From a virus: DNA of 25,247 nt. This document shows, piece after piece, positions 2,890-21,094 of this stretch. The DNA is taken from IMG/VR virus record IMGVR_UViG_3300032738_000257, positions 1-25,247 of that record, one strand, 5' to 3'. Under the pieces are notes generated by a model, which saw nothing but the letters and a program-made list of their open reading frames with translations, searched no databases and was not told where the DNA came from. Within the stretch, counting starts at the first letter, position 1. The number at the start of each line of letters is the position of its first letter. A program made the position numbers and the translations under genes.

Positions 2890-3399
2890 TTAATCTTCTT
2901 GGTCTTCCACTAATTCTAGCTCGTAATCTATTTTACTTTCATTCGATAACACTGTTGCAGTTATTCCAGCTACGCGCACATTTACATGCGCCAATGGTGC
3001 TCCAGATTCACTAGCATATGCAATAATCCCTCCTCCTGCGTGTGCTGGGTTTCCGCTAAATGGCTTTAATTTTTTATAACCTTTAGTTCTAGCTAAACTA
3101 CAAAGTTGGCTAAACGTTTGTAAATCTGCTAGAAGACTAGAATTTAAAACACCTCTCACCATCCATTTCCTTCTATCTATGCCAGTCAAATCGATATCTA
3201 CCCACGTATACATTTTTGCATCATCATTATCAACTGTTTTTCCAACTGCGGGGTCCGCATTCATCAGTTTTTTTTGCTCCATTGTTATCTCTACGCTTTT
3301 TAATTCTATGTCATTTCCGCTATTTGCTTTGTCTGTTTCTTGGGCCACTAAATCTCCAATAGACCGCATACCCGTATCTTGTATTATAATATCTGCCAT
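2890..3399 (-). CDS. Tail protein of unknown function (Dit position)
   Basis: 169 aa, soluble, mixed alpha/beta by eye. It has a tract IDLTGIDRRKWMVRGVLNSS that reads like a beta-strand domain of tail proteins, a Gly-rich stretch (HAGGGII) and an acidic tail (ELELVEDQED). No family is recognised. It lies between the tape measure and hub-like genes, so a distal-tail or adaptor role is an inference from order only. The start ATG overlaps the stop of the preceding small gene by one base (TAATG), so translation is probably coupled. Confidence 0.6.
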   Translation of the reverse strand: MADIIIQDTGMRSIGDLVAQETDKANSGNDIELKSVEITMEQKKLMNADPAVGKTVDNDDAKMYTWVDIDLTGIDRRKWMVRGVLNSSLLADLQTFSQLCSLARTKGYKKLKPFSGNPAHAGGGIIAYASESGAPLAHVNVRVAGITATVLSNESKIDYELELVEDQED

Positions 3400-3581
3400 T
3401 ATCTTGGTCCTCCATAAACGCCGCCTCTACGTTGAATTTCCGTTTTTATATTCGTCTGTGTTTTTCTAGCGGTTTCGCTCTTTGCTTTTCGCAACCGCAT
3501 TAAAGCAGTAGCATACTCGCGTGCTTCTCTTGCCGCTTCTTTAAAAGAATGCGCTGTTTTTTTTAAATTTTCTTTTAACAT
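3399..3581 (-). CDS. Small basic helical protein
   Basis: 60 aa, highly basic, mostly predicted helix with alternating Lys/Arg and Ala (AAREAREYATALMRLRKAKS), ending RRGGVYGGPR. It starts 2 nt after the tape-measure stop, with a GGGAG ribosome site inside the end of that gene, and joins the next gene through TAATG. No family is recognised. Tight packing on both sides supports real translation; a small tail accessory protein is a guess. Confidence 0.6.
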   Translation of the reverse strand: MLKENLKKTAHSFKEAAREAREYATALMRLRKAKSETARKTQTNIKTEIQRRGGVYGGPR

Positions 3582-3583
3582 AA

Positions 3584-6205
3584 CTAATGTTCTCCCTTAC
3601 CTAATTCTTCTCTTATGTTTTGTAGCGCAGTTAAATAGTCGTTAGCTTTACTTGCTGCAGTTTTAAATGCGTCAGCGTTATCTCCTATTTGTTCTGTTGA
3701 AATATACAATTCTTTAGAGAATAAAGGTAGCGTACTACTGTGCATACCAATCAATAAATCATTAAAGTTCCCTGTGAAAATTGCAGTGTTATATGTAGCG
3801 TCACCCAAAAGACCCATTTGAGTTGAAGCAGCTTGCGCAGCTGGTACAAAACCCTCTGGGCCATATAACGCGGTTGCTGTAGCACTCAACGCGGGTGCAA
3901 ACTGATTTTCAACTTCATCAGCAAATTTAACAACTCTCTCCGCTGCATCGGCTAAGAGAGTCGTGGTATAATCTGTATTTTCCATGGCAGAGTTAAGTAA
4001 TAATACTTGTGAAGTCAACCCATTTAAACTACCCGTAGCTCCATTAATTATTGGTGGCGTCTTAGCAAATTCTTTATTTAAATCTGGAACTAATGAGTTC
4101 CCTACGAGTGGTTCCAATGGATTTATAGCATCCCATGCTTCGTCAGTCCAATCTGATAACTCTCCTGTCGCGGCATCTATAACGCCACTAGTTGTAAGAT
4201 TACTGAATGCGGTCTTAGTGTCATTTATTGAGGAAGATACTCCTTCTGGTAATTTAAAGCCAGACCAATTAATACCCTCTATATTTGATTTTATCGCTGC
4301 TGTCGCACCTGCCGCATCGTTTAAATAAGAACTAGATATTTCAATAAACTTACTATCTGTGCCTTCCATTTGACTACTAATTTTATCCCAATCTATTTCA
4401 ACAATTGGTTCTAAATTTATCGGATGTTTTATCGTTCCGCTCGGAGCAATTGCACTTTGCGCTAGCTTTGCTATTTCTTCATCACTAGCATCTTCATAAT
4501 CCAACATCCAATCTATTGCTAAGAAAGCCGCAATAGGAATTAAAACTGGTGCAAAAGCAGAACCAGCAAATGCAGCTAGCGCTCCTGTAATTCCCACACC
4601 AATTGCCGCTAGCAAACCACCCAGACTACCACTCGCCGCACCGGAGCCCGACATATATGCGCCCGCTTTCCAAACTCCAATCCATTTACCAATATCTAAA
4701 ATAAAATCTAGACTTTTTGTAATTGATTTCTTCTTCTTTTTCTTGCCATCTAAAAAATCCAAAGAGTCTAATACTCCTCCTGCGAGTCCATCATCATCTT
4801 CATTTATATTTATAACAACATTACGGTCTCCATCAATATCATCTAAAGAGTCAGCAATATCTTCTAGACTGCGTGAATGACTAGCGAGTTCTGCTATTTC
4901 ATCCTCCATGTCATCTACATTTTTAATCCCTTTTCTAGTAATGGAATCATTTAATTTATTCAGAGCTTTATCCAAGGAGTCTATATCTTTCCGCAATCCG
5001 TTTCTCCCGAGGTCTTCTAGTTTTTCTTCAAAGTCCTTTAGTTTTTTAGTAGCATCTTTACCTATTCCTAACTTTGATAACACCTTCCTTAATGCGCGTA
5101 GTCCTGCTAATATTGCACCCCCGAATATTTTTTTAAGACCATCTAAAAGCAAAAGTAGCGAAGCTAATATCATACCGACTCCTGTAATAGCACCTATTAC
5201 TCCTAACCAAAAAGCTATTTTTTCAAGGACATGTACGGGCATCCGTGATAACCAATTAATAAATGTAATTAACATATCTATCATTTTTTTAAATAAAGGA
5301 GATTGACTTAATGCAGCTATTATTCTGAACTTTAAAAACTCCCAAGCGGCAGATAGCTTATTGGTTTGTTTTGTGAATTCTCCTTGCTTATTAGTAACTC
5401 TTTCATAAGTAGTTATAGCACTTCTAAAGAAAGCCATTATGTACCTATTCAACATCATAAATCCAAACATAAGAGAAAGAAGTTCCATTCTAAACTTTCG
5501 TGTAGAATTACGCAGAGTCATCATAAATCGTCTAGTGCCCATCATTTGTCCAGTAAGCTGATTAAATGCTACAACTCCACCATTCGCAGTTACTCTTATA
5601 GCCACACCTAATTGCTGCATCTGGCTTATAAGTTGTTGTAATGGTATACCTAATTTCATTGCGGCAGTCTGTAAATAAACTAAACCTTTTCCATACGTAG
5701 ACTGGTCAAACCCAATCATAACTCGCGTAGCTTGTTCTAACCCACCAGAAAGAAGATGAAATGCTCTCTCCGCAGACATTACCTTCCCAGTCATGGTATC
5801 AATTACTGCAGTACGAGACCCCAATTGTATAAACTCCATATTCACCGCTTTTAGGCGTTGGGTTAAAGCATCAAACGTTTTTTGTGGGAGTAAGTTAGAC
5901 GATACAAGTCCAAATTGCTGTGCTTTTTGAATAACTAAATCATAATTTTGTCCCAAGCTACTAATTCCTGTTATAATTCTCTTAGTGGCTTGCGCATAAC
6001 TCGTACCAACTACCGTAGAACTAGCAGTTGCGTGTTTAGATATTGCATCTAACTGAGACGCCATAGTGTTCGTTGAAACATTAAATCGCTTTGCCATCGA
6101 TTCTACTGTTTGTCCTAAACCAACAACACCAGAAGTTACTGTTTTAATTCCTGCCGACTTAGCAATCAAATCAAGAGTTATTTGAAGCTTTCTATCATCT
6201 GCCAT
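3584..6205 (-). CDS. Tape measure protein
   Basis: 873 aa, the longest gene in the window. The N-terminal third is helical and Gln/Ser/Thr-rich with repeated amphipathic stretches (VVGLGQTVESMAKRFNVSTN). A hydrophobic segment lies near residues 240-262 (LSLMFGFMMLNRYIMAFF), another around 330-355 (GVIGAITGVGMILASLLLLL) and a Gly/Ala-rich one around 515-560. Charged helices and a poly-Lys run (GKKKKKKS) lie between them. This mix of coiled coil and membrane-active helices, and the position just after the frameshifted chaperone, are the classical signs of a siphovirus tape measure, which sets tail length and enters the host envelope on injection. If the common rule of about 1.5 angstroms per residue applies, the tail would be roughly 130 nm. 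ATG at 6205 follows the chaperone extension's stop by 3 nt. Confidence 0.88.
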   Translation of the reverse strand: MADDRKLQITLDLIAKSAGIKTVTSGVVGLGQTVESMAKRFNVSTNTMASQLDAISKHATASSTVVGTSYAQATKRIITGISSLGQNYDLVIQKAQQFGLVSSNLLPQKTFDALTQRLKAVNMEFIQLGSRTAVIDTMTGKVMSAERAFHLLSGGLEQATRVMIGFDQSTYGKGLVYLQTAAMKLGIPLQQLISQMQQLGVAIRVTANGGVVAFNQLTGQMMGTRRFMMTLRNSTRKFRMELLSLMFGFMMLNRYIMAFFRSAITTYERVTNKQGEFTKQTNKLSAAWEFLKFRIIAALSQSPLFKKMIDMLITFINWLSRMPVHVLEKIAFWLGVIGAITGVGMILASLLLLLDGLKKIFGGAILAGLRALRKVLSKLGIGKDATKKLKDFEEKLEDLGRNGLRKDIDSLDKALNKLNDSITRKGIKNVDDMEDEIAELASHSRSLEDIADSLDDIDGDRNVVININEDDDGLAGGVLDSLDFLDGKKKKKKSITKSLDFILDIGKWIGVWKAGAYMSGSGAASGSLGGLLAAIGVGITGALAAFAGSAFAPVLIPIAAFLAIDWMLDYEDASDEEIAKLAQSAIAPSGTIKHPINLEPIVEIDWDKISSQMEGTDSKFIEISSSYLNDAAGATAAIKSNIEGINWSGFKLPEGVSSSINDTKTAFSNLTTSGVIDAATGELSDWTDEAWDAINPLEPLVGNSLVPDLNKEFAKTPPIINGATGSLNGLTSQVLLLNSAMENTDYTTTLLADAAERVVKFADEVENQFAPALSATATALYGPEGFVPAAQAASTQMGLLGDATYNTAIFTGNFNDLLIGMHSSTLPLFSKELYISTEQIGDNADAFKTAASKANDYLTALQNIREELGKGEH

Positions 6206-6208
6206 TTA

Positions 6209-6801
6209 CTATAAACTAAAGTTTTTCAAACTTTTTTTACCCCCGCCTTTTCCAGTTTTACTTTTCTTTTTTCTCTCTTTTTCCATTCTGTCTCGCAAGT
6301 CTCCTAGCTCGTCCAACAAAACCACAAACGTACTTGCGGGCAAATTTACTATTTCGCCAATAGGCCAGTGGAACTCATACTGTAGCATGAATAGTCCTCT
6401 AACTATTTGTGATTCTATATCGCTTCTTTTCTTCTTATTGAATAAGTGACGGCTTAGCCTTCCTTTTTTACGGAAGGGTTTCCCAAAGGGTCCTCCACCG
6501 CTTTTTCAATATTTTTATCAAATTCTTCCTCGGATGAAATCCATCCCCATGCAACAGATAATTTTTTAATTATAACCATCGCGTGAGTTGTGGCGAAAGC
6601 TTCTAGCTCTTCTTTTGGTTCTTCTGGATAACTACGCACCAATAAATCCGTTAATAGATTAACAGTTTCTACTAACTGTTCTCCTTTATGTTCTCTTAGA
6701 TTTATAAGCCGTTGTTGGTCCACTACTTTTGCTTTTAGTGCTAACTTTTCACCATCTATTTCTATCTCTGTATCTCCAAGGTATTTTGCAAATCTTCCCA
6801 T
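6209..6801 (-). CDS. Tail assembly chaperone, -1 frameshift fusion (G-T type)
   Basis: Predicted long form of the chaperone, 197 aa. The ribosome reads the first 113 codons from ATG 6801, slips back one base on the heptamer at 6469-6463, and reads 84 more codons to TAG at 6211-6209. The added part is not open from any ATG at its own beginning; its first in-frame ATG is at 6388, about 25 codons in. The extension includes LQYEFHWPIGEIVNLPAS and ends in a very basic tail (KERKKKSKTGKGGGKKS). In lambda and relatives the G and GT proteins load onto the tape measure during tail assembly; the gene order here (G frame, T frame, tape measure) is the same. The slip site and frames are read directly; the use of frameshifting is inferred. 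Confidence 0.75.
6454..6801 (-). CDS. Tail assembly chaperone, short form (gpG-like)
   Basis: 115 aa, acidic and helical, with a short beta N-terminus (MGRFAKYLGDTEIEIDGEKL), as in many G-type tail chaperones. It ends with PSVKKEG just after the slip heptamer, so most ribosomes would make this form. A perfect AGGAGG lies at 6818-6813, 11 nt before the ATG. It sits immediately upstream of the tape measure gene. The short form probably coats the tape measure during assembly together with the fusion. No strong sequence signature exists for this fast-evolving family; the call rests on size, composition, position and the frameshift signal. Confidence 0.8.
   Translation of the reverse strand: MGRFAKYLGDTEIEIDGEKLALKAKVVDQQRLINLREHKGEQLVETVNLLTDLLVRSYPEEPKEELEAFATTHAMVIIKKLSVAWGWISSEEEFDKNIEKAVEDPLGNPSVKKEG
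6463..6469 (-). promoter_or_regulatory. -1 ribosomal frameshift slip site A AAA AAG
   Basis: In the chaperone frame the bases read GTA AAA AAG GAA GGC TAA, so the canonical X XXY YYZ heptamer A-AAA-AAG lies two codons before the in-frame stop at 6456-6454. A slip of one base leads into GGA AGG CTA AGC and 84 open codons. A GGAGG lies about 22 nt upstream, farther than known stimulatory SD sites. No strong downstream hairpin is evident. Confidence 0.8.
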
Positions 6802-6816: not shown

Positions 6817-7143
6817 CTACTCTTTAACTCCAAACGTTGCTGGAGCCTTTCTCTTATCTTTTTTTCCTTCCGACTCACCAAGCTTATCTTCTAGCTCATC
6901 AATCCGTTCCCGTAGACTGCTGAAGTTCTCCTGTATCTTCGCTATCGTCAATAACAACTGGAGTGCAGAAATCATTTTGTTCCCCGCATTCTTCTTCGTC
7001 CATATCTTGAACTCGTCCACTGTGTGCAACTGGTCCCTCGGATAAAATATCTTTATCCACAACATCCTCGTTGCTCCCTCCAATGGGTTCGTTTGATTCG
7101 CTATTTGCTGCTCTTCGGTCAGTAGCTTTTCTTTCTCTTCCAT
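6817..7143 (-). CDS. Overlapping reading frame, coiled-coil C-terminus
   Basis: 108-aa frame overlapping the zinc-ribbon gene by 245 nt in the +1 frame. It starts with ATG at 7143, about 10 nt after a GAGG. The last part, beyond the other gene's stop, reads as a charged coiled coil (LRERIDELEDKLGESEGKKD) with heptad-spaced Leu. It fills what would otherwise be an 80-nt gap before the chaperone. Against it, codons inside the overlap end unusually often in G for this AT-rich genome, which suggests the other frame dominates there. It could be a separate overlapping gene, start later (ATG at 6972), or be reached by a +1 shift. No function known. Confidence 0.4.
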   Translation of the reverse strand: MEEKEKLLTEEQQIANQTNPLEGATRMLWIKIFYPRDQLHTVDEFKIWTKKNAGNKMISALQLLLTIAKIQENFSSLRERIDELEDKLGESEGKKDKRKAPATFGVKE

Positions 7144-7300
7144 ATTTTATTTCCTCTTTATCTTTTTGTTCTATCTTTTTTACAGGCAAGATTCTTTTTA
7201 ATCGCTCATCTTTCCTGCAAGATTTACATATAGGGTTTCTCGTATAAGTCTCATACGATTCTTTTCTCCCACACTTTATACATTTTCCACAATATATCAT
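6899..7300 (-). CDS. Zinc-ribbon protein with acidic tail
   Basis: 133 aa. The N-terminus holds cysteines in the order CGKCIKCG ... CKSC (C4, C7, C10, C25, C28), enough for one zinc ribbon. A basic linker follows (RLKRILPVKKIEQKDK), then a strongly acidic, probably disordered tail. The start is well supported: AGGAGGTGA lies inside the last codons of the upstream glycosyltransferase gene and the ATG follows its stop by 2 nt. Codons are AT-ending with RNY bias, so this frame looks truly coding even where it overlaps the 108-aa frame. The position is after the tail tube and an inserted glycosyltransferase. The function is unknown. Confidence 0.65.
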   Translation of the reverse strand: MIYCGKCIKCGRKESYETYTRNPICKSCRKDERLKRILPVKKIEQKDKEEIKYGRERKATDRRAANSESNEPIGGSNEDVVDKDILSEGPVAHSGRVQDMDEEECGEQNDFCTPVVIDDSEDTGELQQSTGTD

Positions 7301-7302
7301 TT

Positions 7303-8235
7303 TTACTTCACCTCCTCTAAAGTTTTTTTGAATGATTCTCTACAAACATCTCTTGAGTAGAAACCAACGCCCTTTTCGGCTACTTCTAAAATCTCTGACT
7401 TAACCTTTTCATCCGCCAATAAATCTATAGCTGCCCGTATCTTTGTAAAGTTATACGGGTCTGATGTAAGCTTCGGAAACAAATTCCTTTGAGCTTCCGA
7501 AAACATACTACCAATACATGGTATTCCCATGGCGGCAGCCTCTACCGAAACTCGACCATATGTATGTATGGTTGTTGGTTCGTATAAAAAAGAACATTTT
7601 GCCATATGTTTAACTATATCTTCATATTCACAGTATTCAATAATATTTGGAAACAAACTGCTTATAACGCCCCAATGTTTTGACTCTTTTCTAATATAAC
7701 CCAAGAGCGCAGGCGTATAGCCCATTCCTTTCAATGCTATGTAAGGTGAGTATATTTGGTCATCGTACCTGTGATACATAACCCCGGCAACTTTCTTAGG
7801 TGCTTTTTCAATCTTTCTTAAATAATCTAAATCCGCTGGATGCGGAATTCTGTAAACTTTTCTCTCTAACAATGCTGCTAGAGCTGACGCCAAACAATAT
7901 TCTGTAGCGATTACTACATCTGCAGAATCTGTCATATGCCTTAATAAAAAAGGATGTCCATATCGCTGTTGCCAAAGTTCTATTGCGTAATCTGTACATG
8001 CAACAATTTTCGTGGATGAAGAGTTACCAATTATCTTCCGTACTTCCGGAATTAAATTGGCATCCCCTCCAGTCATATTGATATGGACAACGTCATACTT
8101 TTCGAAATCCTCTACCCTACTAAATACCTCAATATCACCATCAAATACCTGTAACCACTGATAAAACCCTGTTTTATGCTTAATTTTAGGCAGGGCGTTC
8201 TTATCAAACCAGTTGGTTACAGTTAAGTATTTCAT
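7303..8235 (-). CDS. GT-B glycosyltransferase inserted in the tail operon
   Basis: 310 aa, cytoplasmic, no membrane segment. The pattern fits GT-B (GT4-like) enzymes: an N-terminal Rossmann half with FEKYDVVHINMTGG (44-57), a linker-like IPHPADLDYL (130-139), and a C-terminal half with EPTTIHTYGRVSVEAAAMG, giving E219 and E232 close to the E-x7-E donor-binding motif, then GIPCIGS. It would move a sugar from a nucleotide donor to an acceptor that cannot be told from sequence. It separates the tail tube gene from the tail chaperone, an unusual place for an enzyme and typical of a cargo ('moron') gene. It may glycosylate virion proteins. The ATG is 2 nt after the previous stop, with no SD. Confidence 0.75.
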   Translation of the reverse strand: MKYLTVTNWFDKNALPKIKHKTGFYQWLQVFDGDIEVFSRVEDFEKYDVVHINMTGGDANLIPEVRKIIGNSSSTKIVACTDYAIELWQQRYGHPFLLRHMTDSADVVIATEYCLASALAALLERKVYRIPHPADLDYLRKIEKAPKKVAGVMYHRYDDQIYSPYIALKGMGYTPALLGYIRKESKHWGVISSLFPNIIEYCEYEDIVKHMAKCSFLYEPTTIHTYGRVSVEAAAMGIPCIGSMFSEAQRNLFPKLTSDPYNFTKIRAAIDLLADEKVKSEILEVAEKGVGFYSRDVCRESFKKTLEEVK

Positions 8236-9735: not shown

Positions 9736-10107
9736 CTATATGTGTTGTATCTTATCAGTCAGTACACGTTTATAAATCTTTGTACCGCTTACAGCTATGG
9801 CTGATAATCTAGTTACTTCATAATCATCACTAAATATACTAACTTTATCACCAAGGTCTATGCCAACAGTTGGTTGACAGACAAGTATTACCCGCGAAGT
9901 AATCGGACGACCGAACTCGCGTACTTCTCTAATCTCCTCCTTGCTAGCAGGAGCCATGGCTGCAAGAAAGTCAGTAGCTGCGCCATATGATATAGTTTCA
10001 TCTCCTCTTGCGTTATAAGTTGGTGTAGCAGACCAATAGTTAAAACTAGCTCCAAAAGCTTCTAGAACTTTCGTTACTCCTTTCCTCGATATGTCTACTA
10101 CCGCCAT
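9736..10107 (-). CDS. Probable head closure protein
   Basis: 123 aa. The sequence VLEAFGASFNYWSATPTYNA, then a middle with EFGRPITSRVILV, LGDKVSIFSDDYEVTRLSAI and the end YKRVLTDK form a small beta barrel pattern as in head-tail stopper proteins (SPP1 gp16 / HK97 gp7-like). It lies between the connector and the tail terminator. No clear SD precedes ATG 10107; it follows the connector gene by 6 nt, so translation is probably coupled. The role is inferred from size, pattern and order. Confidence 0.6.
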   Translation of the reverse strand: MAVVDISRKGVTKVLEAFGASFNYWSATPTYNARGDETISYGAATDFLAAMAPASKEEIREVREFGRPITSRVILVCQPTVGIDLGDKVSIFSDDYEVTRLSAIAVSGTKIYKRVLTDKIQHI

Positions 10108-10113
10108 TTAAAT

Positions 10114-10500
10114 TTAAGTAGTAATTGTATCTGGTATGTACCATTTAGTTTCTGCTATACCTAACAATTCTAATTTGTCTTTTATTGCATCCTTTAGCAA
10201 TTGTAGCTTAGATTCTATTTCTTTGCTAGTTGCAGATGATGCGCTTACAGATAATCCAGTAACCGCTACGTCAAATGAGTCTCCTGCTCCCGCTGCTGAT
10301 GCTGCTCTTATTAAACAGTATACCGCTGCCGTATCTTCTACTACGTTATCTACAACAGTGCCGGTTTGGCCACCACAGTATAAATCAACGTAGGCTTGTG
10401 CACGAGCTATTTGCGCAGTTATTATTGCGTCTTTATCTGCACCCATTTCGGTGTAAAAGTCACCGAGTAAATATTTTACATTCGTTTCTGATGCTGCCAT
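10114..10500 (-). CDS. Probable head-tail connector (gp6/gp15-like)
   Basis: 128 aa, mainly helical: LLGDFYTEMGADKDAIITAQ, then QAYVDLYCGG, a helix with DTAAVYCLIRAASAAG, and SKEIESKLQLLKDAIKDKL. Early helix-turn-helix pairs with 'AYVD' are typical of phage connector/adaptor proteins (HK97 gp6, SPP1 gp15), which sit under the portal. AAGGAG and GAGGG precede ATG 10500, just downstream of a terminator-like hairpin. The family is likely but not certain. Confidence 0.65.
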   Translation of the reverse strand: MAASETNVKYLLGDFYTEMGADKDAIITAQIARAQAYVDLYCGGQTGTVVDNVVEDTAAVYCLIRAASAAGAGDSFDVAVTGLSVSASSATSKEIESKLQLLKDAIKDKLELLGIAETKWYIPDTITT

Positions 10501-10525
10501 TCTTTTTTCCCTCTTTTCTCCTTAA

Positions 10526-10560
10526 TAAAAAAAATAAAAAAGCACAGGCTTATGCCTGTA
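10526..10560 (-). terminator. Intrinsic-type terminator over the stop of the repeat protein
   Basis: Minus strand: ACAGGC-ATAA-GCCTGT (10559-10544), extended by a U-G pair, then CTTTTTTATTTTTTTT. The loop contains the TAA stop of the repeat protein. Archaeal polymerase stops at T-runs, so this would end or thin transcription before the connector gene. Confidence 0.65.
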
Positions 10561-11788
10561 CTTGACCAAAGGCCATCCAATTAACTAATTTTCCGTGTGC
10601 ACCGTATATACTTCCACCAGTAGTTCCTATGTTGCCTACACCAGCAAGTGTTCCTGCTGTAACGTTTTCACCATATCCTGGTACTACATGCGGAGCTGCA
10701 TCAAATGTTACGCCCCAAGAAACTGGGTTCGCACCACCAGACATAGTTGTCCCGCCGGTTATAATACCGTATGCTTTAGTTGAACTATCTAGTCCTACAA
10801 CTGTTGGATATGTTCCCGCTGCTACGTTCCTTAAGAATACATTCTTCGTACTTGCTACAAATTCGTCGCCACTAACTACACAATCTCCAAGAATTGAAGT
10901 TGTACCTGTTGGTGTATTAAATGCACCCACTGAAGAACTGTAATCTATATTACTAGTTCCACCTACCGCGGTTATATCTACGCCAGTTGCTATGCTAACT
11001 GCACCGTTCAATAAAGTAGTTCCTGTGCCAGTTGTAAATGGATTTACTCCCGATACAACTACGCTTCCACCTAATGTATTCACGCCAGTACTTGTTTTAA
11101 AAGTACTAGTCATCGCACTGAAATCAACTGCTCCTGCACCAGCTAACGCGTCAAGCGTTTTACCTGCTGCTAATCGCACGTCACCACTCATAGTCGCTAG
11201 TCCTGTTGGTGTCTTAAATGTTCCTGCTGAAGCACTGTAATCAATATTCGTAGTTCCTCCTGCTGCCGTTACATCTATTCCAGAAGCGATACCTACCGCC
11301 CCATTTAGAGTAGTTGCTCCAGTAGGAGTCTTAAACGTACCAACCGAACCGCTGTAATCTATATTAGTTGTTCCGCCTACCGCCGTTATATCAATACCGG
11401 ATGCGATACTTACCGGACCACCTAACGTAGTCGTTCCTGTTGTAGTTTTAAATGTACCAGTTCCTAAACTTAGGTCAACTGCTGTTGTTCCTGCTGCACA
11501 ATCAAGGTCTTTGTTTGCTGCAATAGTTATATCTGTACTTAGTCCTAAAGTTCCGCCAATTGTAACTGCACCAGTAGTTGTCTTAAAGGTTCCACTAGAA
11601 CCAGAAAAGTCAATCTCTGGATTGCCCGAGGTTGTTATGTCTGCATATAACGTTACCGTATCTGTTGTAGCATCTCCTAATTGTGTATCACCCAGTACTG
11701 TTGCATCATCTGTTACTGTAATATCATCTTTTACGGCTACATCTTCCACGTTAAGGTTTGCCCTTTTCATTCCGTCTTTCATTCCCAT
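10550..11788 (-). CDS. Repeat-rich probable head fibre or decoration protein
   Basis: 412 aa, very Thr/Gly/Ala/Val-rich. A repeat of usually 39 aa begins GTFKTPTG and continues with 'TLNGAVGIASGIDVTAAGG' and 'TNIDYS'; units start near residues 66, 111, 150, 189, 228 (short), 255 (partial) and 288. Such repeats suggest a beta-solenoid or trimeric fibre. The C-terminal 110 residues differ (YGIITGGTTMSGGANPVSWG ... NWMAFGQVQA) and may be the distal domain. It lies between the capsid gene and the connector, so a capsid-attached fibre is the best guess; a tail fibre is possible. GAGGT precedes ATG 11788. A terminator hairpin overlaps each end of the gene, which may set its dose separately from the capsid. 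Confidence 0.65.
   Translation of the reverse strand: MGMKDGMKRANLNVEDVAVKDDITVTDDATVLGDTQLGDATTDTVTLYADITTSGNPEIDFSGSSGTFKTTTGAVTIGGTLGLSTDITIAANKDLDCAAGTTAVDLSLGTGTFKTTTGTTTLGGPVSIASGIDITAVGGTTNIDYSGSVGTFKTPTGATTLNGAVGIASGIDVTAAGGTTNIDYSASAGTFKTPTGLATMSGDVRLAAGKTLDALAGAGAVDFSAMTSTFKTSTGVNTLGGSVVVSGVNPFTTGTGTTLLNGAVSIATGVDITAVGGTSNIDYSSSVGAFNTPTGTTSILGDCVVSGDEFVASTKNVFLRNVAAGTYPTVVGLDSSTKAYGIITGGTTMSGGANPVSWGVTFDAAPHVVPGYGENVTAGTLAGVGNIGTTGGSIYGAHGKLVNWMAFGQVQA
10837..11593 (-). repeat. Degenerate tandem coding repeats, about 117 bp
   Basis: Protein-level repeats of usually 39 aa (117 nt) with the core GTFKT[TP]TG recur six to seven times. DNA copies are diverged but share tracts such as the GTFKT codons and those for 'TNIDYS'. 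They are in-frame units of the fibre-like gene, not CRISPR or intergenic repeats. Confidence 0.7.
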
Positions 11789-11799
11789 TTTATTTTTAC

Positions 11800-11839
11800 C
11801 TCATAAAATAAAAATAATATAAGCCTAGGCCTATATTAT
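11800..11839 (-). terminator. Terminator hairpin over the capsid gene stop
   Basis: A 26-nt inverted repeat (11814-11839; core GCCTAGGC, AT arms ATAATATA/TATATTAT with one G-U pair) is followed on the minus strand by TTTTATTTTAT. The capsid stop TAG at 11833-11831 lies in the 5' arm. It probably sets the end of the abundant capsid mRNA, with read-through to later genes. Confidence 0.6.
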
Positions 11840-12664
11840 AGTTATTTCGCATATAGATTCTGGACGTAAGTAGTCTATTTTTATACGTTGCGTTACCGCT
11901 ATTCCAGTCATATCCCTTATGTTGTCCTTATAGTTTTCAATCGACAATGGTCTTCGCTCAACACATGCTATTGCATATCTTGAATCAAACACATATACTT
12001 TATCTTCCGTACAAGCAACGTTTACATAAATCTTCATGGTGAAGATTCTACCAATCATATACATATTTATTGGGTTGTTTACTCCGGATTTGTCCGCCTC
12101 AACAAATGTATCAATTAGTCGTAATTCTGCAGCCTGTTTAGGATGTATAATTATTGTGTCTGCGCGCATGTTTTGTTCTTCAATTCTGCGCATTGCTGTT
12201 ACCAAATCGTCAATATCTAACTCTGTACCAACAGAATTAAACTGGTGATTTGCTGTTATTGCCGAACCAGAATTTAGTGCCGCTATGATTAATGTATTTT
12301 CATTGCGTCCCATCTGGTATCCGGCTTCTCGAATATTCTCCTCAATAACGTCGAATTTCGAGTCTTCTATCATCTCTGTAGTAATCAAAGGTCTGATTCC
12401 ATATTTCAGAGGTGTGAAAATCCTTTCAGTGTAAGCACTGACGTCTATTGGAATTTCGGCACCTTCCGCTACTACGGATACAGACATTGCGTTCGCTGTC
12501 GCCACTTCGAAGTTCAATGAACTTCCATTTTTCAAGTTAAACACTCTACAAACTTCACGAAGTCGCTCTTCTTTAGCAGCTTGTATGATTGTATCATAAA
12601 TCTGCTCTTCGATGAGCTCACTTTCAGATGTAGTCGTGAGCATTAATTGTTGTAATGTTTTCAT
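11831..12664 (-). CDS. Major capsid protein, HK97 fold
   Basis: 277 aa. The N-terminal helix is followed by FEVATANAMSVSVVAEGAEI, the strand/loop FTPLKYGIRPLITTEMIEDS (E-loop to spine helix), DVIEENIREAGYQMGRNENT, then IDDLVTAMRRIEEQNMRADT and IIIHPKQAAELR, the A-domain 'P-domain/A-domain' pattern of HK97-type capsids. The end has DMTGIAVTQRIKIDYLRPES, the usual final strand. The order protease, scaffold-like, decoration, capsid supports it. Length is in the normal range for a mature-size capsid without an N-terminal delta domain; scaffolding is probably supplied by the separate acidic protein. ATG 12664 has a weak AAGGG upstream. Confidence 0.85.
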   Translation of the reverse strand: MKTLQQLMLTTTSESELIEEQIYDTIIQAAKEERLREVCRVFNLKNGSSLNFEVATANAMSVSVVAEGAEIPIDVSAYTERIFTPLKYGIRPLITTEMIEDSKFDVIEENIREAGYQMGRNENTLIIAALNSGSAITANHQFNSVGTELDIDDLVTAMRRIEEQNMRADTIIIHPKQAAELRLIDTFVEADKSGVNNPINMYMIGRIFTMKIYVNVACTEDKVYVFDSRYAIACVERRPLSIENYKDNIRDMTGIAVTQRIKIDYLRPESICEITII

Positions 12665-17101: not shown

Positions 17102-17609
17102 CAGTTATCTTCCTACTTAATATTTGTGTAATAGATTCGCCATCGTCAACAACCTTTAATTCTTTCTGTGCTCTAGAGCGTCTATCCATAAATAAATCTA
17201 TACCTGCATTTCTAAGTAACTTCTGATAACTAGAATCAAGAGTATTTGATAGTGCTACTAATTTCTGTAAGTCCTTGTTCGTTTTAAAGTCACCCTTTAG
17301 CATTTCTTTAAGAATAGTATCATTAACTAGTAGTAACTTTACATAGTTCATAACTAGCAAATACAAATTAGCTAAATCATAAGATTTCTCTATCCCATAC
17401 TCGTCTCTCCACCTTACGAAAAGGTTTCTAGCTATGGATGCTAATGCTTCGTCAGGTATGGCTTTTTCGAAGTAACCTTGCTCCATATCTTTAATATGTA
17501 TATGTCCTTTTTCATCTTCTATGAGATATTTTCTTAAAACCTTCGCTTTACGCATATTCTCTTCTGAATCAGGTATCTTAGAAATTACCGTAGCTATATC
17601 TTTTTCCAT
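17094..17609 (-). CDS. Probable terminase small subunit
   Basis: 171 aa, nearly all helical. The part LANLYLLVMNYVKLLLVNDT followed by NKDLQKLVALSNTLDSSYQK and LLRNAGIDLFMDRRSRAQKE resembles P27-type small terminases, where the last helices form the oligomer ring. A small subunit recognises the viral DNA and regulates the large one. It directly precedes and overlaps terL by 8 nt. The family match is by pattern only; the position strongly supports it. Confidence 0.65.
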   Translation of the reverse strand: MEKDIATVISKIPDSEENMRKAKVLRKYLIEDEKGHIHIKDMEQGYFEKAIPDEALASIARNLFVRWRDEYGIEKSYDLANLYLLVMNYVKLLLVNDTILKEMLKGDFKTNKDLQKLVALSNTLDSSYQKLLRNAGIDLFMDRRSRAQKELKVVDDGESITQILSRKITDG

Positions 17610-18183: not shown

Positions 18184-18215
18184 CTATAAACGTTCTTATA
18201 TAAAAACGTTTCTAT
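18184..18215 (-). promoter_or_regulatory. TATA box in an inverted-repeat operator (regulator/terminase operon)
   Basis: Plus-strand reading: CTATAAACGTT (18184-18194), spacer of 10 nt, AACGTTTCTAT (18205-18215). The TATA box (TTTATATA, minus strand, 18204-18197) fills the spacer, so a bound repressor would block TBP. Both arms contain the palindrome AACGTT, 16 bp apart centre to centre. The distal arm overlaps the stop of the epimerase gene. The same layout occurs at 21143-21174. Confidence 0.75.
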
Positions 18216-19186
18216 TTGTCCCCTCCTAGTAAGTACTGCATTCCTTGTGATAAACTCTTGGCTTTTGTGCTAACTAACTTATTTTTGTTATATAACGTAT
18301 ACTTCCACTCTGTGTCTTCTCTAATAGTTACACAAGGTTTCATAAGCAAATCCGCCTCTACTTGTAGGCCACCGCTATCTGTTATTACTCCTGCAGAGTT
18401 TGAAACTAGCTCTAAGAACTCTTTATAAGGTATTGGTTTAACTAACTCCAAAAACTCGTGTCTAGTGAAGTCTAGCCATAACTCATTTTCTTCCATAATC
18501 TTCCTTGTGTGCGGATGGACTGGAAAATACACTTTATAGCCACTATAAGCAAAGTTTAAAACTATCGCATTTAGTATGTTACGTAAGTTACCTATATTTT
18601 CTATGTTTTCCCTACGATGGAGGGTAAAAACTATATGTCTATTTGCTGGTTTTGTTAGTATATTAGACATTCTAAGCGTCTCTGCCTGAAAGTTTGGAGT
18701 TAAATGTAGATTCCCCCGAACTCCTTCCTTAACTAAGTTTTCATAGCAATGTATATCTGGCGCGAGCAATACATCCGCTAGTTGGTCTACACATCTACGG
18801 TTATGCTCTTCCTGTACAATACCTTTAGCTCTACACCCTGCTTCTATATGCCCTAACTTAACGCCGCACTTTTTGGTAGCTATTGCCGCACCTAGCGTAA
18901 CGTTACAATCACCCACCACATATACACAATCTGGCTTCAACCTCTTTATTACTTCTTCAGTAGTTCTTATTGCCTTCGCTATAAAATCTCCCTGACTTTT
19001 GCTATCGTAACCTAACTCGTGATACTCATCAGGCATTGGTATATCTAAATCTCTAAAAATATACTCCGTTAATTCTTTGTCCCAATGTTGACCAATCCAT
19101 ACTACTTGCGCCTTCTGATATAATTTAAAAAAAGAAGGTAATTTAACTAGATTTGGTCTCGTTCCTACTATTACTATGTTTTTCAT
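18212..19186 (-). CDS. wecB: UDP-GlcNAc 2-epimerase, non-hydrolysing
   Basis: 324 aa, GT-B-like fold. It turns UDP-GlcNAc into UDP-ManNAc. Landmarks: N-terminal IVGTRPN (6-12), VVGDCNVTLGAA (D93), HIEAGCR (E115), QEEHNRR (E126/E127), FTLHRREN (187-193), VHPHTRK (H224/H226), ITDSGGLQVEA (268-278). The catalytic D/E/E/H set is present. It is shorter than the usual ~370 aa, mainly at the C-terminus and in loops, but no motif is missing. It overlaps the zinc-ribbon gene by 44 nt; the start must be at 19186 because the first beta-strand begins there. It is last in the glycan cassette and its stop touches the operator of the next operon. Confidence 0.9.
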   Translation of the reverse strand: MKNIVIVGTRPNLVKLPSFFKLYQKAQVVWIGQHWDKELTEYIFRDLDIPMPDEYHELGYDSKSQGDFIAKAIRTTEEVIKRLKPDCVYVVGDCNVTLGAAIATKKCGVKLGHIEAGCRAKGIVQEEHNRRCVDQLADVLLAPDIHCYENLVKEGVRGNLHLTPNFQAETLRMSNILTKPANRHIVFTLHRRENIENIGNLRNILNAIVLNFAYSGYKVYFPVHPHTRKIMEENELWLDFTRHEFLELVKPIPYKEFLELVSNSAGVITDSGGLQVEADLLMKPCVTIREDTEWKYTLYNKNKLVSTKAKSLSQGMQYLLGGDK

Positions 19187-19382
19187 CTATCCACTCCAAA
19201 GCGAACAACGCTTCGCATTCTGCACACTTCAAACCCGTTGCGCCTAAGTCTGGTCTAACCTTGCCTTTAGCAATCGCGCGTTCAAAACATCCTACAGAAA
19301 ATTTAAAGTTATCTTCACAAGTCCCGCAGGTTGCACTACCACCGCTCTTTACCAATCTCCACTCTTTAGTTATGTGTTCCAT
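19143..19382 (-). CDS. Small zinc-ribbon protein in the glycan cassette
   Basis: 79 aa. CGTCE (C19/C22) and KCAECE (C53/C56) give a four-Cys zinc site, with C32 extra. Hydrophobic LFALEWIDEK follows the second pair. No family recognised. It overlaps the sulfatase-like gene by 17 nt and the epimerase by 44 nt, an unusually long overlap for this genome. It might bind protein or RNA; nothing ties it to sugar chemistry except its place. Confidence 0.65.
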   Translation of the reverse strand: MEHITKEWRLVKSGGSATCGTCEDNFKFSVGCFERAIAKGKVRPDLGATGLKCAECEALFALEWIDEKHSNSRNETKSS

Positions 19383-20229
19383 TTGGTGTCTTTGTATTAT
19401 CTAATCTTTTAATCATGCTGAGATTATAAATTAATAATGGTACGTGGAACATATCTGTATGATTTCCCCACGCATGGAAGTATCTATCACAATCATCTCT
19501 TAGAACAGTTCCATGGTCTGCGGTAACTATTACTACAGGGTTTCCTGGAAGCTTTTTGTGTATTCTTTCGAATACCTGGTCTAAATATCTTATAGCTTCT
19601 ACTTGTTTATCTAAAAGATACGCTAAGTGCGCCTTTGCTGGCTTTGGCTTTGGATAAAACCTACCCAATCCAAGTTTTTTATCATCAGGCATTTTAAAGT
19701 GTGGCGTATCAAACCAATAGTGAGTTTCCCCCATTAAAAATATTGCATAATAAGGTTCTTTTATATTTTCAACTTCTTTTACAATCTCTTCTCCAGCTAA
19801 TTCTGGTTTATCAGGGTGAGTATTAAAAAAGGACTTATAAGTACTAAATTGGTCTTTGTATGGCCAGAACTCAGTTATACCAAACCCCGTATAAAAATAC
19901 GTATTATACCCTACTTTATTAAGGTTTGGAATCATCTCAAAATCAGGCATTAAAACCTGCTCACTGCCATCAGAATGAGGTAATCTTCCACATAAAAGCG
20001 CAGTCATTGCAGGAATAGTCCAGTTACAAGGAGCCCATGCATCGTCATAGTAAAATCCATTGAATGAGTTAGCTAACTTGGTAAAATAAGCCGGTTGTGC
20101 ATGTTTAAACTGGTATTCTGGGACCGAATCCAATACAAATATTACAACATTCCTAGGTTCTGGGGCACCAAACAATTTTTTCTTAGGTTTGATGGCCTCA
20201 TCACTTACTTTGCGTCTTTCTTCTATCAT
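19366..20229 (-). CDS. Sulfatase/alkaline-phosphatase superfamily enzyme
   Basis: 287 aa from ATG 20229 (the frame is open to TTG 20238). The metal-binding VIFVLDSV (D34), the nucleophile region APCNWTIPAMTALLCG (66-81) and the second metal site VTADHGTVLRDD (D238/H239) identify the superfamily. The nucleophile block is of the 'WT-x-P' kind, so T71 is the likely nucleophile; C68 is not in a CxPxR formylglycine setting, so true sulfatase activity is doubtful. It may remove or transfer phosphate or sulfate groups on glycans. No signal peptide, so it acts inside the cell or in the virion. It is shorter than typical (400+) but has both metal sites. It overlaps the glycosyltransferase by 29 nt. 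Confidence 0.8.
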   Translation of the reverse strand: MIEERRKVSDEAIKPKKKLFGAPEPRNVVIFVLDSVPEYQFKHAQPAYFTKLANSFNGFYYDDAWAPCNWTIPAMTALLCGRLPHSDGSEQVLMPDFEMIPNLNKVGYNTYFYTGFGITEFWPYKDQFSTYKSFFNTHPDKPELAGEEIVKEVENIKEPYYAIFLMGETHYWFDTPHFKMPDDKKLGLGRFYPKPKPAKAHLAYLLDKQVEAIRYLDQVFERIHKKLPGNPVVIVTADHGTVLRDDCDRYFHAWGNHTDMFHVPLLIYNLSMIKRLDNTKTPNGTHN

Positions 20230-21094
20230 TTTTCTCAATTATTTTCTTATACTCTTCGTGAAGAACCTTAGCTATTGTATCAGCATCGTGAGTTTCATCA
20301 AATTCACTAATAACGTTAAATTCTCCATCTTTAATCATATCTATTGATGTAGTTATTGCTTTTCCTCCAGTAGCTAACATTTGTAGCGAAGTATAAGACA
20401 ATTCCGCATCCCCTGATAAATCATTTAAAAAATACTCATATTTATTCAACAATTCAGACATTTCGTCATATGGAACCCAATTTTCTTCTCTAATTATTAT
20501 TTCTACAGGAACGCCTAACTTTTCCTCTATTAGCGAGACCATCCGATTACTCGCCCCTAACGGTTCAGTAACTGTTCTAAAGTACAAAACACAGTGCTTT
20601 CTATTATCACAGTATGGCTTAATTGGTTTAAATACGCGCTTATCCACTGGGTTTGGAAGCCACATTGGTTTTGACTTATACCTATATCGCTTTACACTTT
20701 TCTCTAAATCCTTCGTAGAATAAAGCACCAAATCCGCCGCTTCTACACCAAGTACCAACGGTCCACTGTATTTATTCCTTATCTCACTACCATGAAAATG
20801 TAATACTATATTATCGCAACAAAGCCCGCGTAGATGTGATGCTGTTAAATAACTCGCATGAACATGAATAATATCTGCACTCATAAGTTCAGAACTTATT
20901 TCATTAATCATATTAAACCATTCAACACCCGCAGTACTTGAGCATAAAACTGGTTGATAAATTGTCCCCCCAAATCCTTGGTGATGATAACCTTTTACGT
21001 TATAACACTTAGCGTCAACGCCCTCTATTCTATTAAGCGCCTCCACTAAAGTCGCAGCAACATTTGCTTGATTACCAAGATGAATAACTTTCAT
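20201..21094 (-). CDS. GT-B glycosyltransferase (GT4-like)
   Basis: 297 aa, cytoplasmic. N-terminal Rossmann half with IHVHASYLTASHLRG (76-90), the acceptor/phosphate loop LHFHGSEIR (98-106), a linker LPNPVDKRVF (146-155), and a shorter C-terminal half with LSYTSLQMLATGGKAITTSI near 240, the E-x7-E region reduced to 'ELSYTSLQML'. It probably transfers a sugar from a nucleotide donor. First gene of the glycan cassette; its ATG is 31 nt from the first base of a TATA box, so leaderless. With the sulfatase-like enzyme and epimerase it could alter the host envelope or virion glycans. Confidence 0.78.
   Translation of the reverse strand: MKVIHLGNQANVAATLVEALNRIEGVDAKCYNVKGYHHQGFGGTIYQPVLCSSTAGVEWFNMINEISSELMSADIIHVHASYLTASHLRGLCCDNIVLHFHGSEIRNKYSGPLVLGVEAADLVLYSTKDLEKSVKRYRYKSKPMWLPNPVDKRVFKPIKPYCDNRKHCVLYFRTVTEPLGASNRMVSLIEEKLGVPVEIIIREENWVPYDEMSELLNKYEYFLNDLSGDAELSYTSLQMLATGGKAITTSIDMIKDGEFNVISEFDETHDADTIAKVLHEEYKKIIEKNDRRKTQSK

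Follow-up and report, generated by a model that had tools for sequence, protein, structure and literature searches.

The window analysed here is the entire IMG/VR record IMGVR_UViG_3300032738_000257, a stretch of 25,247 bases with a GC content of 37.5% and with nearly all of its genes on the minus strand. Head genes are represented by the large terminase, the portal and an HK97-type capsid protein, and are followed by connector-like genes, a tail-tube candidate (a 180-aa ORF that is taken as the tail tube), a glycosyltransferase-like gene, a chaperone and the tape measure. An 873-aa protein (3584..6205, minus strand) is assigned as the tail tape measure from its position, its length and a weak PHROG tape-measure match (E=0.0099). 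Its C-terminus is apparently split off: a 60-aa ORF at 3399-3581 (minus strand), ending NIKTEIQRRGGVYGGPR, matches the end of the uninterrupted tape measure of the related locus L003 (SIKTEVQRRGTGYGGPR). The glycosyltransferase-like gene (7303-8235, minus strand) lies within the tail module, with the tail-tube-like ORF on one side and the chaperone on the other, and L003 carries such a gene in the equivalent position. Just upstream of the chaperone, two long ORFs of 133 and 108 aa overlap in different frames (6899-7300 and 6817-7143, minus strand). Further away, a UDP-GlcNAc 2-epimerase and proteins resembling a sulfatase and a glycosyltransferase are clustered at 18212-21094 (minus strand) and could possibly serve surface glycan changes.

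The putative tail assembly chaperone, a short form comparable to gpG of phage lambda, is encoded at 6454..6801 on the minus strand (115 aa plus a TAA stop at 6454-6456), and its gene ends GTA AAA AAG GAA GGC TAA. Within this end, and read from the minus strand, lies the slippery heptamer A_AAA_AAG (plus-strand coordinates 6463-6469), in frame for a -1 slip (GT A|AAA|AAG) and separated from the stop by the sense codons GAA GGC, exactly the two-codon spacing that a previous sequence-only reading of this DNA had described. The same reading had the -1 frame open for 84 codons to a stop 3 nt before the tape-measure ATG, and this too is exact. The gpT-like extension occupies 6209..6463 (minus strand), reads GRLSRHLF...KNFSL (GRLSRHLFNKKKRSDIESQIVRGLFMLQYEFHWPIGEIVNLPASTFVVLLDELGDLRDRMEKERKKKSKTGKGGGKKSLKNFSL in full) and ends at TAG 6209-6211, beyond which come a second in-frame stop, TAA, and the tape-measure ATG at 6203-6205. 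Among 5000 dinucleotide shuffles of the gap, an open -1 frame of at least 80 codons arose at a frequency of 0.0008. Two other in-frame candidates lie slightly upstream on the minus strand. G_GGA_AAC (6478..6484) was rejected as the main slip site, being kept in none of the relatives L003, L002 and L026, and C_CCT_TTG (6484..6490) is also present in L003 and absent from L002 and L026, leaving the A-run as the site common to the window and all three. No convincing 3' stimulatory structure was found after the window site (z about -0.8 to -1.0).

The coding content of the extension was assessed by comparison with L003, where the -1 frame has a pN/pS of 0.59 and the two remaining frames have 1.00 and 1.10. 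The AlphaFold model of the extension has a pLDDT of 83, with a helical core at 96-97, while the chaperone is modelled at pLDDT 81 as a beta hairpin with five helices. Judged from these comparisons and models, the extension forms a helical domain that is conserved, subject to purifying selection and confidently predicted in fold. Sequence searches with the window chaperone returned no significant match to a known chaperone, and the extension domain likewise had no significant direct match to one. The assignment draws on the ORF calls, the model, the relatives L003 and L026, and the matches of the window's relatives to PHROG tail assembly chaperone families (phrog_344, 1442 and 1613; best E 8e-4 to 4e-3). 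Fold matches all had E > 0.1, several of them being named tail assembly chaperones. A comparison of the chaperone against PDB folds gave a top Z of 4.5 and no clear match; there was no chaperone among the matches listed, so that it excludes nothing.

Relatives were gathered by chaperone search (L002), by capsid protein (L003 and others) and by capsid alignment, which yielded 80 loci. The chaperone of L003 is 62% identical to that of the window and its gene reads TTA AAA AAG GGT TAG; that of L026 is 48% identical, with the site A_AAA_AAA, and that of L002 is 27-30% identical by alignment, with A_AAA_AAA/A_AAA_AAG. Each of the three has a -1 extension that stops at the next long ORF, and in L003 and L026 the in-frame site is retained amid diverged surroundings. 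Iterated searches of six-frame translations with an extension HMM, for which no slip site was required, recovered about 20 more relatives, most of them in -1 overlap with the upstream ORF and ending at the tape-measure gene. Conservation of the heptamer among relatives, which the sequence-only reading had proposed as a check, was borne out: an in-frame A_AAA_AAR occurs in 11 of the 18 related -1 overlaps, where 0.10 would be expected from the codon background of 0.0005 per codon in the related contigs (binomial 6e-21; this P value and the two that follow ignore shared descent), and in 2 of 168 control overlaps, namely other -1 overlapping gene pairs on the same contigs (Fisher 1e-11). Because the HMM seeds had been chosen by their slip sites, the count among the non-seed cases, 5 of 16 (P=2e-8), is the fairer one.

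The combination of a small ORF upstream of the tape measure, a heptamer near its 3' end and a -1 ORF ending at the tape-measure start agrees with the lambda G/GT arrangement that the earlier reading had recognised. By far the best explanation, and one held with high confidence on sequence and model evidence, is that a -1 frameshift of the lambda G/GT type makes two forms of the tail chaperone. Most ribosomes would stop at TAA to give the 115-aa protein, while a fraction would slip back by one base, with the P- and A-site lysyl-tRNAs on A_AAA_AAG, to give a 197-aa fusion. If the two forms act as gpG and gpGT do in lambda, the short one should coat the tape-measure protein and the fusion should recruit tail-tube subunits, with the efficiency of slippage setting the ratio between them. 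The slip, its efficiency and the role in tail assembly are what we infer from the layout, the conserved heptamer and the constrained, folded extension.

Other explanations of the same arrangement were weighed against this one. The extension could be a small gene in its own right, with a start codon of its own and translated by coupling, and some distant relatives do resemble such a layout. In L017 the extension (11657-11864) starts with an ATG that immediately follows the chaperone stop and is preceded by GGAGG (GGAGGATAG-ATG), in L020 the chaperone and extension (20020-20232) overlap by ATGA, and L058 (extension 17342-17551), L066 and L053 carry the extension in the +1 frame, where starts of its own are possible. 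All five lack an A_AAA_AAR positioned in register for a -1 shift, and the separate-gene form, named earlier as the finding that would speak against recoding, is confined to distant relatives lacking the heptamer (L017, L020 and possibly L058 and L066). In the window the first 25 residues of the extension contain no start codon, and no ATG, GTG or TTG is met until 59 codons remain, at a point within the first conserved helix and with no Shine-Dalgarno sequence just upstream. This start-less first part argues against a separate gene, and the other relatives with A_AAA_AAR mostly lack a usable extension start as well, making independent initiation highly improbable. The co-occurrence of the heptamer with a start-less -1 extension fits a functional site, and that of the window is probably functional. 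Slippage of RNA polymerase on the A-run, giving a mixed mRNA pool, would account for the same two products, and runs of 8-10 A's in several relatives (L002, L005, L028, L072 and L079) are of a length that permits it. The window, L003 and L075, on the other hand, have just six A's followed by G, the classic ribosomal heptamer and a short run for transcriptional slippage, and the run keeps one reading register, which ribosomal slippage alone requires; transcriptional slippage is accordingly regarded as very unlikely. That a homopolymer base was lost, by sequencing error or in a decaying gene, and split a single ORF can be given practically no weight: homopolymers are error-prone, but related contigs with the same layout come from several independent metagenomes and show the same -1 relation amid unrelated surrounding sequence, which already contradicts error or decay.

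A further alternative accepts the frameshift and places it in a bacterial host, as an ordinary phage G/GT case; the best terminase match is a Thermus phage and the record carries no host link. Against this, the coding strand has six YTTATATA boxes, four of which precede a gene start by 17-31 nt, and a related portal was found in 58 records of the phage collection, of which 53 are haloarchaeal viruses by name (the window capsid protein had no match in that collection). A capsid protein 32% identical to that of the window, and 48-67% identical to those of many relatives, is also encoded on a Candidatus Pacearchaeota MAG contig (L013), the sole capsid match to a named genome. A bacterial host is therefore unlikely, and the window virus is, on these sequence grounds, likely a member of the archaeal Caudoviricetes with an archaeal host. 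The archaeal setting asserted in the sequence-only reading is upheld as regards the promoters, seen here as TATA boxes, to which the mostly haloarchaeal portal relatives can be added, while the host, supported indirectly, is to be taken as likely rather than settled. The L013 contig carries a tailed-virus head module at 9992-10849, possibly a host link or possibly a binned virus, and its capsid match points to no particular archaeal phylum for the window virus. Alignment of the chaperone (A7) against 371 genomes of the L013 phylum gave two marginal, partial matches (E about 2.5e-4) inside longer ORFs, and these were for that reason rejected as host evidence.

With a lambda-type -1 frameshift retained as the explanation for the window, a sister clade shows a different site at the same gene pair. 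Six chaperones of the L070/L081 type, used as queries, identified 44 loci, essentially all with a -1 extension and, except for L125, without A_AAA_AAR in the right place; L125 has a downstream A_AAA_AAA in addition. Members of the clade (L070, L078, L081, L084, L109-L112 and L117-L159) share, almost without variation, an in-frame (G/A)A_U_UUU_C where the -1 overlap begins: in the 0 frame, GAT or AAT (GTT in one case) precedes TTT, and the next codon usually starts with C. Within the set taken for folding, U_UUU is present in 38 of 38 and is followed by C in 36; loci outside this set include L143 and L149 (U_UUU_UUA or U_UUU_UUG) and L126 (G_GGG_U at that position). The -1 frame opens exactly at TTT in L129, L133 and L159, and the 0 frame stops one codon after it in L128 and L138, which together pin the slip to UUU. 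For most -1 shifts, the minimum site is stated to be a tetranucleotide, Z_ZZN (PMC5009743).

Stems downstream of the U_UUU site were found by per-sequence folding and a stem search. A stem score of at least 12 was reached in 14 of 38 sequences, compared with 0.6 in shuffles, and nearly all of these stems start 4-9 nt after UUU. Across 19 strong stems the arms vary yet stay complementary, with cross-pairing at 47% (own pairing being 100% by construction). When the U_UUU clade was aligned with MAFFT and folded with RNAalifold, no consensus structure emerged, as the stems differ in position and in the length of their loops. The capsid proteins of L070, L074, L078, L081 and L088 share 61-67% identity with the Pacearchaeota-binned one, and that of L084 shares 49%. 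Taken from sequence comparison, it is rather probable that in this clade, with DPANN hosts probable, the tail-chaperone slip has shifted from the tandem heptamer to a one-tRNA U_UUU_C site while keeping the same -1 extension, a stem-loop following 4-9 nt downstream of UUU in at least a third of the members. If true, -1 sites of both classes would serve the same pair of genes within one archaeal virus group, and this switch is more novel than the heptamer case of the window.

The sequences suggest that -1 frameshifting of tail chaperones is widespread in uncultivated, probably DPANN-associated tailed viruses. They also account for a gap left by gene callers and provide many natural sites, both heptamers and tetranucleotides, on which slippage of archaeal ribosomes can be studied. 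In the literature searched, no paper joining DPANN, Caudoviricetes, tail and frameshift was found. A 2021 review (PMC8211752) lists one reported case of archaeal cellular -1 frameshifting; for the virus cases it goes no further than calling them "apparent".

Among known systems, lambda gpG/gpGT shares with the window the small ORF upstream of the tape measure, the -1 heptamer near its end and the extension ending at the tape-measure start; the searches made detected no sequence similarity between them. They differ in the heptamer, the slip site of lambda being G_GGA_AAG, while the A_AAA_AAG of the window is that of E. coli dnaX, and in that the window virus is probably archaeal. Frameshifting of tail chaperones in archaeal viruses was reported in 2013, and the cases comprise HVTV-1 and HCTV-1, -2 and -5 (-1) and HSTV-2 (+1) (PMC5009743; PMC8211752). 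GenBank annotates joined tail assembly chaperones in HVTV-1, HCTV-2 and HSTV-2. HSTV-2, which is among the portal matches, likewise has an archaeal-virus tail chaperone made by frameshifting, in the +1 rather than the -1 direction. HVTV-1 and HCTV-2 have the joined chaperone directly upstream of the tape measure, as in the window, and -1 sites that read G_GGA_AAG and A_AAA_AAC, respectively; their extensions do not match the extension HMM. The window case is therefore not new in kind, but it has a different extension family and is a useful starting point for a broad collection of frameshift sites in archaeal viruses.
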